Shown: piece by piece, positions 1 through 56,523 of the stretch
Layout: each line of letters begins with the position of its first letter
Position numbering within the stretch: position 1 is the stretch's first letter
NCBI RefSeq assembly: GCF_006874625.1
Contig: NZ_CP030034.1
Location: 1 to 64,000, forward strand
Length of the DNA: 64,000 nt
Source of the DNA: Bdellovibrio sp. NC01
GTDB lineage: Bacteria; Bdellovibrionota; Bdellovibrionia; Bdellovibrionales; Bdellovibrionaceae
Reading direction: 5' to 3'
The notes under the pieces: model-generated
Seen by the model: the letters and a program-made list of their open reading frames with translations, nothing else
Told to the model about the DNA's origin: nothing
Databases searched by the model: none
Made by a program: the position numbers and the translations under genes

Positions 1-1419
1 GTGGAGTTGAACTCTTCTTTCTGGAACCTGATTAAAACTAAGATGAAGAGCCGTAACGATAACAATAAGTTATTGGATACTTGGCTAGATCCGATCGAAT
101 ACATTTCGACTGCGGGTACTCAAGAACGTCCCAAATTAATACTTGGGGTCCCAAATGCTTTACATCAGTACTTCGTAATTGAGAACCTTCAGGATAAAAT
201 TTATACAGAGATTTCAGATACTTACGGCCATCCATTTGAGGTTGAATTTAGTATTACGGGCCACAAAGTAAACCCACATATCGAGACTTCCCATGCCCCA
301 ATGGAAGAGGTTTCGGGTGGTTCTGAAGTTCTTCAGGCTCAGTTGTCACGTACTCAGGGTATCCAGACTACTCAACAAAGATCTAGTGAAGGGTCTTTGA
401 ATAGTGAGCTCACTTTCTCGACTTTCGTTGTGGGAAAAAATTCAGAATTTGCCCACGCCGCGTGCTTTAACGTGGCTAGGAACCCTGGCGCTGATGATTA
501 CAACCCTCTCTATATATATGGACCGGTTGGGATGGGTAAAACCCATCTTTTGCACGCTACTGGAAACCATATTCGTGATCAATTTCAGCAACTTAGAATT
601 ACTTATATCTCGGCTGAACGCTTTATGAATGAATGTATCTCGGCGATTCGTCGTCACGAGATGGATAAGTTCAGACAAAAATACCGCGAAAACTCCGACA
701 TCCTTTTAGTGGATGACGTGCAGTTCATCGCGCGTGGTGAAGCTGTTCAAGAAGAGTTTTTCCACACGGTGAATAGCTTCATCGATAGCCGCAAACAGGT
801 TATCTTGGCGAGCGATCGTATGCCGAAGGATATCCATGGCCTTGAAGACCGCAGTCGTACCCGTCTTGAACGTGGCTTGATTGTGGACATCACGATGCCA
901 GATCTGGAAACACGTATCGCGATCCTTCGTTATAAAGCGGAAAAATTTAATATGCGTCTTCCAGAAGACGTTGTGACTTACATCGCACGTATTTCTAAAC
1001 GTTCAATCAGAGAGCTCGAAGGCAATCTTAAGAAGGTTAAGATGTTCTCTGAACTTCAAGGTTTGCCGATTGATGGTGAGCTTGTGAAACGCATTCTGAT
1101 GCATCATGAAACTCAATCTACTATTTCAGTGGAAGAGATCATGAAGCTTGTTGCTGACCACTATAAAGTGCGCGTTTTAGATCTAAAATCGTCGACTCGC
1201 GCAAAACCAATTGTCGTTCCACGTCAAATTGCGATGCATTTGATTAAGAAGTTTTTGGATAAATCTTTGGTGGATATTGGTAAAGCTTTTGGCGGAAAAG
1301 ATCACACAACTGTGATGAACGCGCTTGAGAGGGTTAAAAATCTACAGGCGACCGATCAAGATATCGCTAAAGATATCGAAGACTTGGAACAGAGAATCCA
1401 CAATATCACAGGGGTGTGA
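1..1419 (+). CDS. dnaA: Chromosomal replication initiator DnaA
   Basis: This AAA+ ATPase binds DnaA boxes at oriC, opens the origin and loads the replicative helicase. The 472-residue protein has the usual four parts: an N-terminal domain (about 1-95), a Ser/Gln-rich linker (about 100-135), the AAA+ core with Walker A GPVGMGKTH at residue 174 and Walker B Asp-Asp at 238-239, and a C-terminal DNA-binding domain with the signature GGKDHTTVMNA near residue 430. Translation starts with GTG at base 1, so the upstream control region is outside the window. The protein is full length for the family. The spacer to dnaN looks like the origin, and dnaN and recF follow in the classic order. Confidence 0.98.
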   Translation: MELNSSFWNLIKTKMKSRNDNNKLLDTWLDPIEYISTAGTQERPKLILGVPNALHQYFVIENLQDKIYTEISDTYGHPFEVEFSITGHKVNPHIETSHAPMEEVSGGSEVLQAQLSRTQGIQTTQQRSSEGSLNSELTFSTFVVGKNSEFAHAACFNVARNPGADDYNPLYIYGPVGMGKTHLLHATGNHIRDQFQQLRITYISAERFMNECISAIRRHEMDKFRQKYRENSDILLVDDVQFIARGEAVQEEFFHTVNSFIDSRKQVILASDRMPKDIHGLEDRSRTRLERGLIVDITMPDLETRIAILRYKAEKFNMRLPEDVVTYIARISKRSIRELEGNLKKVKMFSELQGLPIDGELVKRILMHHETQSTISVEEIMKLVADHYKVRVLDLKSSTRAKPIVVPRQIAMHLIKKFLDKSLVDIGKAFGGKDHTTVMNALERVKNLQATDQDIAKDIEDLEQRIHNITGV

Positions 1420-1653
1420 ATGTGGACTGTGGAAAGAGCTGTGGAAGAGTTTGAGGGTAAAAATGTGGATCTGAGTTACCCCCAAAATCGCAGCTTTTCA
1501 GGGCGACTTGTACAGAACCCTTATCCACAACTGTTTTTTAGTGTTTACACGCACTTAGAGGATTTGTTAGGTTTTCCACGCCCCTACTACTACTACTAGT
1601 TATTTATATTATAAGTAATAGATAATAAGAGAGGGTTTAAAAGAGGACTTGTT
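1420..1653 (+). other. oriC: Probable oriC: DnaA boxes, DnaA-trio and AT-rich unwinding region
   Basis: The dnaA-dnaN spacer carries a perfect DnaA box TTATCCACA at 1521-1529. Near-matches lie at 1428-1436, 1440-1448 and 1464-1472 (reverse orientation, two mismatches each) and at 1572-1580 (TTTTCCACG). Directly after the last box come CCCC and five CTA repeats (1584-1598), which read 3'-GAT-5' on the minus strand away from the box. A strongly AT-rich tract follows (about 1600-1630). Box, GC cluster, trio repeats and AT-rich DNA form the basal origin arrangement described for Bacillus subtilis. The spacer must also hold the dnaN promoter. Function is inferred from sequence. Confidence 0.85.
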
Positions 1654-2760
1654 ATGAAAATTGAAATTGATAAGAGAGATCTATTAAGCCTTATCGGTAA
1701 AACTCAGAATATCGTTGAGAAACGCAACACAATGCCAATCTTGATCAACGTTCTTCTTGAGGCAGATCAGAACTTGTTGAAAGTTTTCGCAACAGATTTG
1801 GAAGTAAGTCTTACTGACCAAATCAAAGCGCAAGTTCATCAACCAGGTAAAGTTGCTGTTTCAGCAAAGTCACTTTTCGAAATCGCAAAAGAACTTTCTG
1901 AAGGTCCAATCACTTTGATTAAAAAAGAAAACAACTGGTTGGAAATCAAACAAGGTAAGTACACTTCGAAAATTGTTGGTATCTCTGCTGAAGAATATCC
2001 GATCTTCCCTACTTACAACTCTCAAGCATTTATTAAAATCGATGCGCAAGTGTTGAAAGAGATGATTGATAAAACAATCTACTCTGTATCGAACGATGAA
2101 ACTCGTTACCACTTGAATGGCGTATTCTTTGAGTTGAATCCACAAGCTGGTTTCAAAATGGTTGCGACAGATGGTCACCGTATGAGTTTAGTTTCTAAAA
2201 ACTCTTCGGATGTAAAAGTTGCAGCAACTCAAGGTGTGATCATTCCACGCAAAGGTCTTCATGAAATCAAAAAGATTTTAGAAGGTATCGATGGCTCTGT
2301 GGAAATCGCTGTGGAAGGCTCGCAATTCGTATTGAAACATTCATCAACAATCTTGATGATCCGTTTGATCGAAGGAAAGTACCCGAATTATCAACAGTTT
2401 ATTCCACAGAAACTTCCGCAAAAAGTTATGATCAACAAGGAAGCTTTCTTAACTTCGTTGAAACGTGTGTCGTTGCTAGCGAATCAAAAATCAAAAGCAG
2501 TTCACTTGATCTTGAACAACGGCAAAATGGAAATCTCTTCGAACAATCCAGAGTTGGGTGATGCGAAAGAAGAAATCGAAGTAGAATATTCGGGTGGCGA
2601 AATCAAAATTGGTTTCAACGCGAAATACATCACTGACATTTTGACTTCAATCAACGATGACAAAATTGATTTCGAATTAAACGATCACTTGTCACCAGGT
2701 TTGATGAGACCACACGACGACGCATCTTACACTTGCGTTGTTATGCCTATGAGAATCTAA
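1654..2760 (+). CDS. dnaN: DNA polymerase III sliding clamp (beta subunit)
   Basis: The clamp forms a ring around DNA, tethers polymerase III and recruits ligase, MutS and other partners. The 368-residue product has the normal length and three-domain organisation. It begins with the typical amphipathic start (MKIEIDKRDLL) and ends in the conserved C-terminal motif VVMPMRI, which closes the partner-binding pocket. An AGAGGA ribosome site lies six bases before ATG. The stop codon shares one base with the recF start (TAATG), so the two are translationally coupled. Its position between dnaA and recF is the standard one. Confidence 0.98.
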   Translation: MKIEIDKRDLLSLIGKTQNIVEKRNTMPILINVLLEADQNLLKVFATDLEVSLTDQIKAQVHQPGKVAVSAKSLFEIAKELSEGPITLIKKENNWLEIKQGKYTSKIVGISAEEYPIFPTYNSQAFIKIDAQVLKEMIDKTIYSVSNDETRYHLNGVFFELNPQAGFKMVATDGHRMSLVSKNSSDVKVAATQGVIIPRKGLHEIKKILEGIDGSVEIAVEGSQFVLKHSSTILMIRLIEGKYPNYQQFIPQKLPQKVMINKEAFLTSLKRVSLLANQKSKAVHLILNNGKMEISSNNPELGDAKEEIEVEYSGGEIKIGFNAKYITDILTSINDDKIDFELNDHLSPGLMRPHDDASYTCVVMPMRI

Positions 2761-3884
2761 TGATTTTCGAACGACTACGTCTTGTTAATTTTCGGAATTA
2801 CCGAGACGTAGTGATCTCATTCTCTCCTCGAGTGAATGTTTTCCTCGGAGAAAATGGACAAGGTAAAACGAATCTCCTTGAAGCGATGTATATGATCTCT
2901 CAAGGAGACTCCTTCCGCTACTCTGACAATTCCACACTGATCAACTCGAATAACCAAGAAGCACTTATTCAAGCGTTGATTAGTCAGAACGATCTTCACT
3001 ACAAATTAAAAATGGGTCTGTCGAAAAGCCGCAAGGTTTTAACGTTGAATGAAAAACGTGTGAACTCGGCCGACATCAGAAAAATTTTTGCTAGTGTTGT
3101 GTTTAGTCCAGAAAGTTTGGCTTCGATCAAAGAAGGTGCCGATCATCGCCGCGAACTGGTTGATGAGTTGCTGGTTACTTTTGATCGCAAAAATGTGAAT
3201 TTACTTTCAGATTATCGAAAAGCGCTGAAAACGCGTAACAAGATCCTTAAAAACTTTTTGGAAGGCCTGCAGGATAAAACGGTCACCGAGAACCTTTTGG
3301 AGTCCCTAGAGCCCCAATTTGTGCGTTTAGCGACCGATTTGTCATACGCCCGCATCGAAGCATTGGCTGGTTTGTCGAAAGAGTTCAATAATGCCATGCA
3401 ATACATTTCTGGCAATTCCGCTGTGGATATCTCGGTGGAATATGTGATTTCCGATCAAAACGCCGTGAAATTTTCCCGAGAAGAAGTCCAATCTGCACTC
3501 GAAAAACGCATCAAAGAATTGCATGATGCGGAGCTCTCAAGTGGAACCAGTTTGGTAGGGCCCCACAAGCACGACATCGTCTTCCTATATGGTGGAAAAG
3601 ACTCAAGATTTTTTTGTAGCCAAGGGCAGCAAAGAGCCATCATTCTTTCTTTCAAAATGGCCCAAATTGTGTATCATAGGAAGGCTCACGGAACCTATCC
3701 CGTGCTGATGTTAGACGATGTTTTATCCGAGCTCGATAAAGCCAAAAGAGAAGCGCTGATTACGTTCTTACACGAGATCAATACGCAGATTTTTGTGACG
3801 ACGACCGATTTCACATTGCCTGAATCATTCAGCCTCGATCAGCTTTCCGTTGTGCGCATCAAGGATGGTCACATCCTTGAGTAG
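2760..3884 (+). CDS. recF: DNA replication and repair protein RecF
   Basis: RecF is an SMC-like ATPase that helps load RecA at gapped DNA together with RecO and RecR. I place the start at the ATG overlapping the dnaN stop, giving 374 residues. A longer reading from 2733 would only add codons inside dnaN. Visible motifs are Walker A GENGQGKTN (residues 30-38), the ABC-type signature SQGQQRAI near residue 298 and a Walker B ending LMLDDVLSELD. A 56-base gap separates it from gyrB. Confidence 0.97.
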   Translation: MIFERLRLVNFRNYRDVVISFSPRVNVFLGENGQGKTNLLEAMYMISQGDSFRYSDNSTLINSNNQEALIQALISQNDLHYKLKMGLSKSRKVLTLNEKRVNSADIRKIFASVVFSPESLASIKEGADHRRELVDELLVTFDRKNVNLLSDYRKALKTRNKILKNFLEGLQDKTVTENLLESLEPQFVRLATDLSYARIEALAGLSKEFNNAMQYISGNSAVDISVEYVISDQNAVKFSREEVQSALEKRIKELHDAELSSGTSLVGPHKHDIVFLYGGKDSRFFCSQGQQRAIILSFKMAQIVYHRKAHGTYPVLMLDDVLSELDKAKREALITFLHEINTQIFVTTTDFTLPESFSLDQLSVVRIKDGHILE

Positions 3885-3931
3885 AAACGTGCGACTCCTT
3901 CGAAAGTGTCGAAGGGTATGCAAAACAATGA

Positions 3932-6361
<2,430 letters not shown>

Positions 6362-6387
6362 TTTTTAGATTTTAAGTTGGTGTATGT

Positions 6388-8874
6388 ATGGAAAATAATA
6401 ATCAAGAAAAGGGTGTTACCCGCGTAGACGTCAGTAAGGAAATGCGTGATGCATACCTTCAGTACTCGATGTCAGTTATCGTTGGTCGTGCTCTTCCTGA
6501 CGTTCGTGACGGTTTGAAACCAGTTCACCGTCGTGTATTGTTCGCGCAAAGTGAAATGAACAACCGCCCTGGCAGACCGTACTTGAAGTCAGCCCGTGTT
6601 GTCGGCGACGTAATCGGTAAATACCATCCACATGGTGACTCTGCGGTTTACGAAACGATGGTTCGTATGGCCCAAGATTTCTCATTGAGATATCCGCTTG
6701 AGGATGGTCAAGGTAACTTCGGTTCTATCGACGGTGATAGCGCAGCAGCTATGCGTTACACTGAGATTCGTATGACTCATCTTGCAGAAGAGTTGTTGAA
6801 CGATATCGAAAAAGAAACTGTCGCTTTCGGTCCCAACTACGATGACTCTTTGCAAATCCCATTGGTGTTGCCAGCAAAATTCCCAAATCTTTTGGTGAAT
6901 GGTTCTTCTGGTATCGCGGTTGGTATGGCGACAAATATTCCGCCGCACAACTTGGGTGAAGTGATCGATGGCTGTGTGCACTTGATCAACAATCCACAAT
7001 GTACTCTTGAAGACTTGATGGTTCACATCAAAGGCCCAGACTTCCCGTCTTACGGTGTGATCGCGGGTCGCGAAGGTATTCTTCAAGCTTATAAAAAAGG
7101 TCGCGGCATCATCACATTGAAAGCCGTTGCTGAAATCGTTCCGCAAAAAGACCGTGAAGAGATCATCGTTACAGAGATCCCTTACCAAGTTAATAAAGCG
7201 AAACTTATCGAAAGCGTTGCAGATCTAGTTCGTGACAAACAAATCGAAGGTATCTCTGATATCCGCGACGAGTCTTCACGTGAAGGTATGCGTATCGTGA
7301 TTCAATTAAAACGCGGCGAAAACGCTAGCGTGATCTTGAATCGCTTGTACAAATTCACACAAATGCAAGTTTCTGTTGGTATCATCATGCTTGCGCTTGA
7401 TGCGAAAAACCAACCAGTGACTTTCGATTTGAAAGGCATGCTTGAAGCATTCGTTGATCACCGTCGTGACGTTGTTACGAAACGTTGTATCTTCGAATTG
7501 AAAAAAGCCCAAGAGCGCGCGCACATCTTGGAAGGTTTGAAAAAAGCTCTCGATCATATCGAAGAAGTTATTAAAACAATCCGCGCTTCTAAAGAAGCCG
7601 TTGCTGCTCGTGAAGCTTTGATGAAGAATTTCGAATTCTCTGAAAAACAAGCGGTTGCGATTCTCGAAATGCGTTTGCAACGTTTGACAGGTTTAGAGCG
7701 TGATAAAATCATCGCTGAACTTGCAGAGTTGATGAAACAAATCGATTGGTTGAAATTCGTTCTTTCTGACGTTCGCGAAATTTACAAAATTATCGTGGGC
7801 GAACTTGAAGACATCAAAAAACGTTATGCCGATGTTCGTCGTACACAAATCCAAGGTTCGTTGGATGACATTGAAGACGAAGATTTGATCGCTGACGAAG
7901 ACATGGTTGTGACTGTGACAAACACAGGTCTTATCAAACGTATGCCAACAGCTGAATACCGCGTGCAAAAACGCGGCGGTAAAGGTCTGAAAGGCATGGA
8001 AACGAAAGAAGAAGACTACGTTACAGACTTGTTCTCTGCTTCGACGAAAACGATGCTTCTTGTCTTCACTGACAAAGGTAAAGTCTACTGGTGTAAAGTT
8101 CATAAACTTCCACTAGGCTCAAGAACTTCTAAAGGTAAGTCTTTGGCGAACGTGGTGCAATTGGCGAGCGGTGAAAACGTTCGTGCGATTCTTCCAGTGG
8201 ATTCATTCGACGAAAATAGATTTGCAGTTATGTTGACTGAAAAAGGTGTGATTAAGAAAACATCTTTGGATGCGTTCGCAAATCCTCGTACAGCAGGTAT
8301 CATCGCATTGACGACAGATCTTGATGACGGCGTTATCGACGTTAAGATTTCTGACGGCCAAAGCGATATCTTCATCGCTACTAAAGAAGGTATGTCGATT
8401 CGTTTCAACGAAAACGACGTGCGTGGCATGGGTCGTACAGCTCGCGGTGTGAAAGCAATCACTCTTGCGAAAGACGACGTTGTTGTTGCGATGGAAGTTC
8501 TAGAGAAAAACACAACTGATACAATCTTGATGGTGACATCAAAAGGTTACGGTAAACGTTCAGAAACTGGCGAATATCGTGTTCAGTCTCGTGGCGGTGT
8601 TGGTATCATCACTCAAAAAACAACTGACAAAGTTGGTAACGTTATCGGAACTAAAAAAGTTTCCGAGAAACATGAGTTGATCTTGTCGACGGATAAAGGA
8701 CAAGTCATCCGCATGAAGATGTCGGATATCTCGGTTCTTGGCCGTAACACGCAAGGTGTTCGTTTGATTAACATCGACGAAAAAGATGAAACTGTAACAG
8801 GTGTAGCTGTTGTTGAAGACGATCACTCGGATGAAACTCCAGCAGGAGCACCTCCAGAGGAAGTAAAACACTAA
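6388..8874 (+). CDS. gyrA: DNA gyrase subunit A
   Basis: GyrA is the DNA-cleaving subunit of gyrase. The catalytic tyrosine is Tyr124 in the motif [10 protein letters not shown]. The quinolone-resistance region reads [13 protein letters not shown], with the wild-type-like Ser and an acidic Glu at the position that is Asp in E. coli. The GyrA box QKRGGKG at residues 527-533 marks the DNA-wrapping C-terminal domain and separates this protein from ParC. The length of 828 residues is normal. The stop codon lies one base before the next ATG. Confidence 0.97.
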
Positions 8875-39821: not shown

Positions 39822-40121
39822 TTAGTTTAGTTTTTTGACACGAATCTTGTAGTTGTCAATTTTCTTCTTAAGAGTGTTGCGATTGATGCCTAGCATTTGC
39901 GCTGTTTTCACTTGGTTGCCGTTGTACGCGCGCAAAGCAAGCTCTAGAAGAGGTTTTTCTACTTGTTCGATAACGACGTTATATAGACCGTTCAATTCAA
40001 CTTGAGCTTCTTTTTGTTGAGCAAACAAAACTTCCAACTTACTTTTCACAAGCTTTTCCAAGCTTACTGACTGAAGGTTGGCGACAAAAAGATTATCAGA
40101 ACTGTTTAGGTTCGGCGTCAT
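39822..40121 (-). CDS. Fis-type DNA-binding protein
   Basis: A 99-residue protein, almost the same length as E. coli Fis (98). ATG 40121 is preceded by GGGAG; a reading from 40214 is not supported. The C-terminal helix-turn-helix (GNQVKTAQMLGINRNTLKKKIDNYKI) is clearly Fis/NtrC type, and LYNVVIEQVEKPLLELAL aligns with the Fis dimer helices. There is no AAA+ domain, so this is a stand-alone nucleoid-type or regulatory protein. It lies 65 bases downstream of queE on the same strand. Confidence 0.85.
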   Translation of the reverse strand: MTPNLNSSDNLFVANLQSVSLEKLVKSKLEVLFAQQKEAQVELNGLYNVVIEQVEKPLLELALRAYNGNQVKTAQMLGINRNTLKKKIDNYKIRVKKLN

Positions 40122-52676: not shown

Positions 52677-54140
52677 TTGCCCACTTCTTTTTTTAGCTAT
52701 CCGAAATCAGATTTTAGATCAGCGCAATATACTGCGGTGATTAGCGACCTCCATTTATCTGAGGCAGAACCTGTTAATATTCGTTTTCCTTTATGGAAAA
52801 AATTTAAGACTCGTCAGTTCTTTTTTGATGATGTTTTTGAAAGCTTTCTTAAACACATCGAAGAAAGAGCCCAAGGTGCGCCGATAGAGTTGATCTTAAA
52901 CGGCGACATTTTTGATTTTGATAGCGTGATGGCACTTCCCGATGAACCAACATTCCACGTCAGTTGGTTGGAAAAACATCGTGGTCTATTCCCACGCCCG
53001 GATCGTTCGCGTTTTAAAATTCAAAAGATTTTGAAAGACCATGCTGAGTTTATGACGTCACTACGTGACTTCATCATGCGTGGAAATCGCGCCGTCTTTG
53101 TGATCGGCAATCACGATTTAGAACTTCATTTTCCCGGCGTACAGGAAGAAATTTTTCATAGTCTGAATCTGCCGGATGATAAAAAAGAACAAGTGCGCTT
53201 CGTTGAGTGGTTTTATATCAGCAACCAAGACACATTGATCGAACATGGCAATCAGTATGATCCGTATTGCTTATGTGAAGACCCAATTAATCCTTATGTG
53301 CGCGGTTATAATTACGTCGCTTTGAAACTGCCATTCGGAAATTTGGCGTGTCGTTATATTTCTAACGGCATGGGATTCTTTAATCCGCATGTTGATACGA
53401 ACTACATCATGACCCTTTCAGAGTACGTTAAGTTCTTTTTCAAATATATTTGGAAGGCACAACCTGGTTTGGTATTCACGTGGTTCTGGGGTTCGCTAGC
53501 GACATTGGTGCACGCGTCGTTTGATCGTCTGTCGGCTCCGATTCGTAATCCACTGCGCATTGAAGACCGTGTATCAATCATCGCGCAAAAAGCGAATGCC
53601 GAAGATCGCATGGTGCGAGAGATGAAAGAACTTTTTGCAGTTCCAGCAGCTAGTAAACCGGCATTGCTTGCGCGTGAGTTGTGGTTGGATCGTGCGTTTA
53701 TCGTCTTCATTGCCTTCTTTTTGATTTTCCAATTGATGGTGTTTGTGCGTTCGGTGTACGAAATTTCCTTCTTCTGGGCATTTATTCCGTTATTTTTGTT
53801 GCTGCCATTTTTCTTGTTTTACAGCAAGTCGATCAGCTCACTAGTTTCCAGTTATAAGGAACCAGATGACCGCGTTCTTGCAATGGCCAGTGCGATCACG
53901 AAGGTGAAACGCATTGTTTACGGACATACTCATCATACCCGCCACGAAATCATCGGTTCGGTTGAACATTTGAACAGCGGATGTTGGTCGCCGGCATTTT
54001 TAGACGTGGAGTGTACAAAGCCGATTGACCAAAAAACCTTTATTTGGATTTCCCCAGGGGAAAATGGAGTACGGCAGGCAGAACTTATGAAGTTCATGGA
54101 TGGAAAATCTGAAGTGGTAAATCCGTCGGCTCGCGGTTAA
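52677..54140 (+). CDS. Membrane-anchored metallophosphoesterase
   Basis: A 487-residue calcineurin-like phosphoesterase. Start is TTG behind GGGAGGG. Metal motifs are SDLHLSE, NGDIFDFD, GNHDLELH and GHTHHTRH (near residue 416). Two hydrophobic helices (about 338-382) lie between the third and last motif, so the catalytic halves must be on the same face of the membrane, with a helical hairpin dipping in. LpxH-like lipid phosphatase activity is one possibility; the substrate is not known. It is divergent from murD by 17 bases. Confidence 0.85.
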   Translation: MPTSFFSYPKSDFRSAQYTAVISDLHLSEAEPVNIRFPLWKKFKTRQFFFDDVFESFLKHIEERAQGAPIELILNGDIFDFDSVMALPDEPTFHVSWLEKHRGLFPRPDRSRFKIQKILKDHAEFMTSLRDFIMRGNRAVFVIGNHDLELHFPGVQEEIFHSLNLPDDKKEQVRFVEWFYISNQDTLIEHGNQYDPYCLCEDPINPYVRGYNYVALKLPFGNLACRYISNGMGFFNPHVDTNYIMTLSEYVKFFFKYIWKAQPGLVFTWFWGSLATLVHASFDRLSAPIRNPLRIEDRVSIIAQKANAEDRMVREMKELFAVPAASKPALLARELWLDRAFIVFIAFFLIFQLMVFVRSVYEISFFWAFIPLFLLLPFFLFYSKSISSLVSSYKEPDDRVLAMASAITKVKRIVYGHTHHTRHEIIGSVEHLNSGCWSPAFLDVECTKPIDQKTFIWISPGENGVRQAELMKFMDGKSEVVNPSARG

Positions 54141-54247
54141 ATCTGCTTACCTGGTGCGCTGCAAAATTTGAATTTTCTTTGTCAATTCCTGGACCCTATG
54201 CAAACCTTTTACTGTTTCAATTTAAACACGGATGGAGAGGTTCAATC

Positions 54248-54442
54248 ATGGCAGAAGTTCTTGTAGTAACTAGCAAAGTAAAAAAGCTCATCAAAGAAAA
54301 AGGTGGCATGAACACTTCAGCAGAAACTATCGACGTACTTAGCAAAGCAATCGAACAACTTTGCATGAAAGGCATCGATAGCGCGAAAGCTGATGGCCGT
54401 AAAACAGTTATGGCTCGTGATATCGTTATCGATCACCTATAA
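54248..54442 (+). CDS. Bacterial histone (Bd0055/HBb type)
   Basis: A 64-residue histone-fold protein. ATG 54248 follows GGAGAGG; a reading from 54179 adds an unrelated leader. Helix 1 (SKVKKLIKEKG), the long helix 2 (TSAETIDVLSKAIEQLCMKG) and helix 3 (MARDIVIDHL) are clear. The loop GRKTV followed by ARDI matches the archaeal histone GRKTIKAEDI. The B. bacteriovorus protein is an abundant chromatin component that binds DNA in a non-nucleosomal way. The gene is monocistronic with its own terminator. Its length corresponds to a single histone fold without tails, which would act as a dimer. Confidence 0.95.
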   Translation: MAEVLVVTSKVKKLIKEKGGMNTSAETIDVLSKAIEQLCMKGIDSAKADGRKTVMARDIVIDHL

Positions 54443-54470: not shown

Positions 54471-54503
54471 TAAAACCCACAGCCTTAAAACTGTGGGTTT
54501 TTT
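54471..54503. terminator. Bidirectional terminator between histone and ligA
   Basis: AAAACCCACAG (54472-54482) and CTGTGGGTTTT (54491-54501) pair perfectly across an eight-base loop, with a T-run after it. Confidence 0.92.
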
Positions 54504-54507
54504 ATTT

Positions 54508-56523
<2,016 letters not shown>

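Follow-up and report, generated by a model that had tools for sequence, protein, structure and literature searches.

The closest described relative of the histone considered here is Bd0055, or HBb, of Bdellovibrio bacteriovorus HD100, for which crystal structures have been published both with and without DNA (PDB 8FVX, 8FW7, 8CMP, 9EZZ, 9F0E). Bd0055 is abundant and is located in the nucleoid, in whose fraction from attack-phase cells no protein is more abundant, and attempts to delete its gene failed (PMC10627809). A dimeric state in solution and sequence-independent DNA binding are established for Bd0055 only (PMC11317129, PMC10627809). Quite what the dimers do to DNA is a matter of published dispute: in the Bd0055 co-crystal they coat straight DNA (PMC10627809), whereas HBb is held to bend DNA, a simulation giving 84 degrees across 36 bp, tethered particle motion and circularisation experiments supporting the bend, and the binding being independent of sequence (PMC11317129). 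Wrapping of DNA is seen in neither study (PMC10627809, PMC11317129). Bd0055 gives neither FRET between DNA ends nor an MNase ladder. DNA contacts of HBb are made by N22, R57, S9, T53, T8, S24, K10, K12, K52 and K16 (PMC11317129), and S45, A48 and I61 are tied to non-tetramerisation, such that changing them lets Bd0055 bring DNA ends together (PMC10627809).

Other histones provide more distant points of reference. The ZZ-type histones (Bd3044 and relatives) are about 160-200 aa long and carry an N-terminal Cys-rich domain; the HMf-type archaeal histones have longer helices, tetramerise and wrap DNA; and HLp of Leptospira (PDB 9QT0) is likewise a bacterial singlet histone fold. The gene analysed here lies at positions 54248-54442 (+) of the window, the whole 64,000-nucleotide stretch of Bdellovibrio sp. 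NC01 DNA under study, and its open reading frame runs from ATG to TAA to give on translation a 64-residue protein, MAEVLVVTSKVKKLIKEKGGMNTSAETIDVLSKAIEQLCMKGIDSAKADGRKTVMARDIVIDHL. As had been claimed in the original prediction, a complete histone fold of 64 residues is encoded, with GRKTV at residues 50-54 and ARDI at 56-59; PF00808 is matched at 22.1 bits (E 1.8e-4), just exceeding the Pfam cut-off of 21.4, and the solved Bdellovibrio chains 8fvx and 8cmp are matched over their full length (E 1.4e-33 and 1.6e-33).

The comparison with Bd0055 that the original prediction proposed gives identity at 60 of 64 residues (94%) between proteins of the same length, from the same genus and alike in contact residues and non-tetramerising positions, and so supports a Bd0055-type identity. 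The four substitutions relative to Bd0055 are Q20G, L40M, V43I and E44D, none of which falls at a published HBb DNA-contact residue. No notable difference is seen from the alpha-3 family of bacterial dimer histones (Schwab et al. 2024, PMC11390915), with which the NC01 protein shares a short helix 3, the RKTxxxD signature (R51, K52 and T53 with D58) and the helix-1 lysines K10, K12 and K16; the HBb/Bd0055 category is defined by sequence clustering, and 94% identity with an E of 1.4e-33 places the protein within it. The histone domain of the ZZ type is only some 47-50% identical, and the NC01 protein is the histone fold alone. By its sequence the gene is an ordinary ortholog of the published histone, and since descriptions and solved structures of that histone already exist, the locus is known in kind. 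We put at roughly 95% the reading as a whole, namely that this is an HBb ortholog, an alpha-3-truncated dimer histone that would bend and/or coat DNA and be expressed from a monocistronic gene mainly in growth phase.

Selection acts on the protein. Against 15 relatives dN/dS is 0.02-0.07 with dS of 0.5-2.2, and so the frame encodes a selected protein and is not a chance ORF. A histone match is present in all 24 Bdellovibrio genomes and, across the phylum, in 171 of the 192 genomes sampled; some of the matches in distant genomes may be other histone types. Across 86 distinct orthologs the invariant residues are V7, T8, S9, K10, K12, K13, N22, T23, T27, L31, A34, L38, C39, G42, A46, D49, R51, K52, T53, V54, R57, D58 and H63. 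All the HBb DNA-contact residues are present, with T8, S9, K10, K12, N22, K52, T53 and R57 among the invariant positions and K16 and S24 kept in 85 of the 86, so that the DNA-contact surface is essentially frozen whereas parts of helix 2 drift. S45, A48 and I61 are the same as in Bd0055.

The protein had been called close to archaeal histones, which stands for the shared fold and not for the sequence, the latter being far closer to HBb with only weak archaeal similarity. Should it be a canonical archaeal-type histone, it would tetramerise and wrap DNA into hypernucleosomes, and it does share the histone fold, RKTV and the RD clamp with HMfA/HMfB, HTkC and HmvA, as well as weakly matching the NCBIfam archaeal histone model NF043032 (E 6.5e-7). 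Yet the 29.7 bits of that match lie below the cut-off of 50, the archaeal proteins are much more distant in sequence (matches at E 7e-6 to 0.35, as against 1e-33 for HBb), helix 3 is short, and A48 occupies the place of H49 of HMfB, a conserved helix-2 histidine of the tetramer interface; lacking this histidine and scoring below the cut-off, the protein falls outside the archaeal nucleosomal class. The 94% identical Bd0055, moreover, does not wrap DNA (PMC10627809, PMC11317129), and an archaeal-type wrapping histone is thus extremely improbable. Individual matches to other histones comprise HTkC (E 7e-6), HmvA (3e-4), Leptospira HLp (3e-3; 33% identity in structural alignment) and HMfA (0.1).

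Structure prediction, suggested originally as a check that might fail to return a histone fold, gave one. The AlphaFold2 (AF2) monomer model, built from 34 orthologs, places two helices at residues 9-19 and 24-48, followed by a third that is short (mean pLDDT 74.6, pTM 0.49), and its five best PDB matches are five Bdellovibrio HBb chains, at an rmsd to HBb of about 5 Å. The third helix is truncated to three residues, at moderate confidence, as in the HBb crystal structures. The mediocre quality of the model arises because an intertwined obligate dimer was folded as a monomer, and a better case for the fold is made by the 94% identity to crystal structures of high resolution.

That the B. bacteriovorus histone is abundant and coats or bends DNA without forming classic nucleosomes, as stated in the original prediction, agrees with the published work (PMC10627809, PMC11317129), and by analogy with the 94% identical Bd0055 the NC01 protein would also dimerise, bind DNA, be abundant, be expressed in growth phase and be nearly essential. 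The protein is one of the bacterial singlet histones ("bacterial dimer", alpha-3-truncated), and a pair of its chains would form one histone-fold dimer. By means of the L1-L2 loops and helix 1 this dimer would hold the backbone of DNA at its minor grooves, without sequence specificity. The tetramer contacts for archaeal-style wrapping would be missing, and with very abundant dimers along the chromosome DNA would therefore be bent and/or coated, a role like that of HU/IHF. A specialised regulator binding particular sites, in place of a global nucleoid protein, might be suspected from the 455-475 enriched regions found for HBb by DAP-seq, but these yielded no motif and binding was spread over the genome (PMC11317129), and Bd0055 tops nucleoid-fraction abundance in attack-phase cells (PMC10627809); such a regulator is accordingly very unlikely.

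The histone gene would form a monocistronic unit that has a promoter and a terminator to itself. It lies about 53 kb from dnaA, since dnaA opens the window; the genes that follow dnaA within 1-8874 read as dnaN-, recF-, gyrB- and gyrA-like, all but dnaA being named from sequence reading. In 18 Bdellovibrio genomes the histone gene and dnaA are 44-61 kb apart, so that a near-origin position is a genus trait, and one that may raise histone gene dosage in growth. Upstream lies a calcineurin-like metallophosphoesterase gene at 52677-54140 (+; PF00149) and downstream, convergently, the NAD-dependent DNA ligase gene ligA at 54508-56514 (−; PF01653, PF03120, PF00533). The C-terminal half of the phosphoesterase appears on reading to hold hydrophobic segments, and within the order its gene is often found beside that of the histone. 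Among the 72 relatives with enough flank, ligA is adjacent and convergent in 50, the phosphoesterase is adjacent in 46, and both adjoin the histone gene in 37. A strain-specific arrangement is ruled out by this synteny, the phosphoesterase / histone / ligA arrangement extending across the genus and one or both neighbours being retained in much of the order; the gene does stand alone between the two as its own transcription unit, as had been noted, but not as a peculiarity of NC01. A phage source of the gene found no match among phage records.

A terminator for the gene had also been proposed, and is seen as a bidirectional intrinsic terminator of 11 pairs at 54472-54501. Across 18 relatives 97% of cells are paired, and 15 cells carry compensatory double changes as against 3.3 in shuffles. 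Its A and T runs are symmetrical and so the terminator could be used by the convergent ligA too. Rfam matches around the histone gene are centred on this terminator and all score far below the gathering level, and a structured RNA there was rejected on those scores.

A promoter region of its own was asserted for the gene in the original prediction; a plain sigma-70 scan upstream finds no promoter, and support comes instead from alignment of upstream regions, where a conserved block stands about 40 nt before the ATG. Its promoter-like element (54179-54207, +) reads TTGTCA-N12-TATGC-AAACCT in NC01, with a −35-like TTGTCA, a 17-nt spacer ending in TATGC (an extended −10 of TRTGN form) and AAACCT in the −10 place; the consensus is TTGTCA-N12/13-TATGN-(A/C)ANNNT. 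A purine-rich ribosome-binding site, GGATGGAGAGG, lies just before the ATG (54231-54247, +) and is kept in most genus members. Of 97 distinct upstream regions, 40 contain TTGNNN-N12/13-TATG, a count inflated by relatedness among the sequences, against a mean of 1.6 and a maximum of 5 of 98 in 200 shuffles. The box reads TTGTCA in 33 of these 40, and in the hexamer that starts one base past TATG the second position is A in 39 and the sixth is T in all 40, whilst positions 3-5 vary. TTGTCA, a spacer of 17-18 nt ending in TRTGN, and A2 with T6 are the marks of an extended −10 promoter whose −10 hexamer is poor, and the element is accordingly a candidate of that kind. TTGTCA-N12/13-TATGNNANNNT has one match in the NC01 genome, and the search with an extended pattern, at a tolerance of 3 mismatches, returns the same single site; in a fuzzy search with 5 substitutions allowed, shuffles matched equally often. 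This uniqueness, together with the poor AAACCT hexamer and the empty sigma-70 scan, could also point to an operator for a dedicated regulator in place of a promoter, but an extended −10 promoter would account for the TTGTCA box, for TATGN and for a spacing of 17-18 nt, and it is the two most important −10 positions that are kept whilst those between them vary, which leaves an operator a serious but unlikely reading.

Taken as an extended −10 promoter, the element can be set against other sigma factors. The GG-N10-GC spacing of sigma-54 does not, on reading, fit it. The attack-phase FliA consensus is TTAAG-N16-CCGATA, from work in which growth-phase starts could not be mapped (PMC3627812); no match to it is found in 54151-54247 with up to 3 mismatches, and over the whole window the same tolerance gives about a chance number of matches. 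The element fits an extended −10 promoter, unlike FliA, and is therefore a testable candidate for a growth-phase promoter, a class left unmapped when the attack-phase promoters were mapped (PMC3627812). Histone transcription probably occurs mainly during growth inside prey.

HD100 has a second histone and NC01 does not, searches of the NC01 genome with the 64-aa histone, PF00808 and the ZZ histone finding none; the second PF00808 match, at 2669903-2670031, has E 0.8 and is within chance range. HBb is thus the only detectable histone of the NC01 genome. Of 24 Bdellovibrio genomes, 7 encode a larger histone, some 160-190 aa long and Cys-rich in its N-terminal domain, which is consistent with the ZZ histone Bd3044; Pfam gives no match to the Cys-rich domain, the zinc-finger assignment coming from the published description (PMC11390915) and the cysteine pattern. 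It is absent from 17 of the 24 genomes, NC01 included (16 of the 23 others), and several of the 17 are complete, which argues against a general essentiality of the second histone and so bears on the statement in a review that both Bdellovibrio histone genes are essential (PMC11318664).

Elsewhere in the window a Fis-type protein of 99 aa with an HTH_8 domain is encoded at 39822-40121 (−), as a stand-alone gene directly upstream of a dnaB-like gene, and at other places the NC01 genome has four genes of the HU/IHF family. The Fis-type protein had been counted as a sign of unusual chromatin; it is encoded as described, but is consistent with the known Fis Bd0039 (PMC11318664), and with the four HU/IHF-family genes makes up an ordinary Bdellovibrio nucleoid set. 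With an ordinary Fis, 94% identity to Bd0055 and a neighbourhood kept genus-wide and in much of the order, the proposal of an unusual chromatin system in NC01 is not supported.

Bacterial histones are evidence that histone chromatin exists beyond archaea and eukaryotes, and what the NC01 locus adds is modest: the absence of a second histone from most of the genus, the essentially frozen DNA-contact surface and the candidate growth-phase promoter. More tentatively, and with the odds somewhat against it, a dedicated, deeply conserved and genome-unique extended −10 promoter, unlike the FliA type, may tie histone supply to the growth phase, and HBb alone may carry histone-based chromatin in those species without a ZZ histone.
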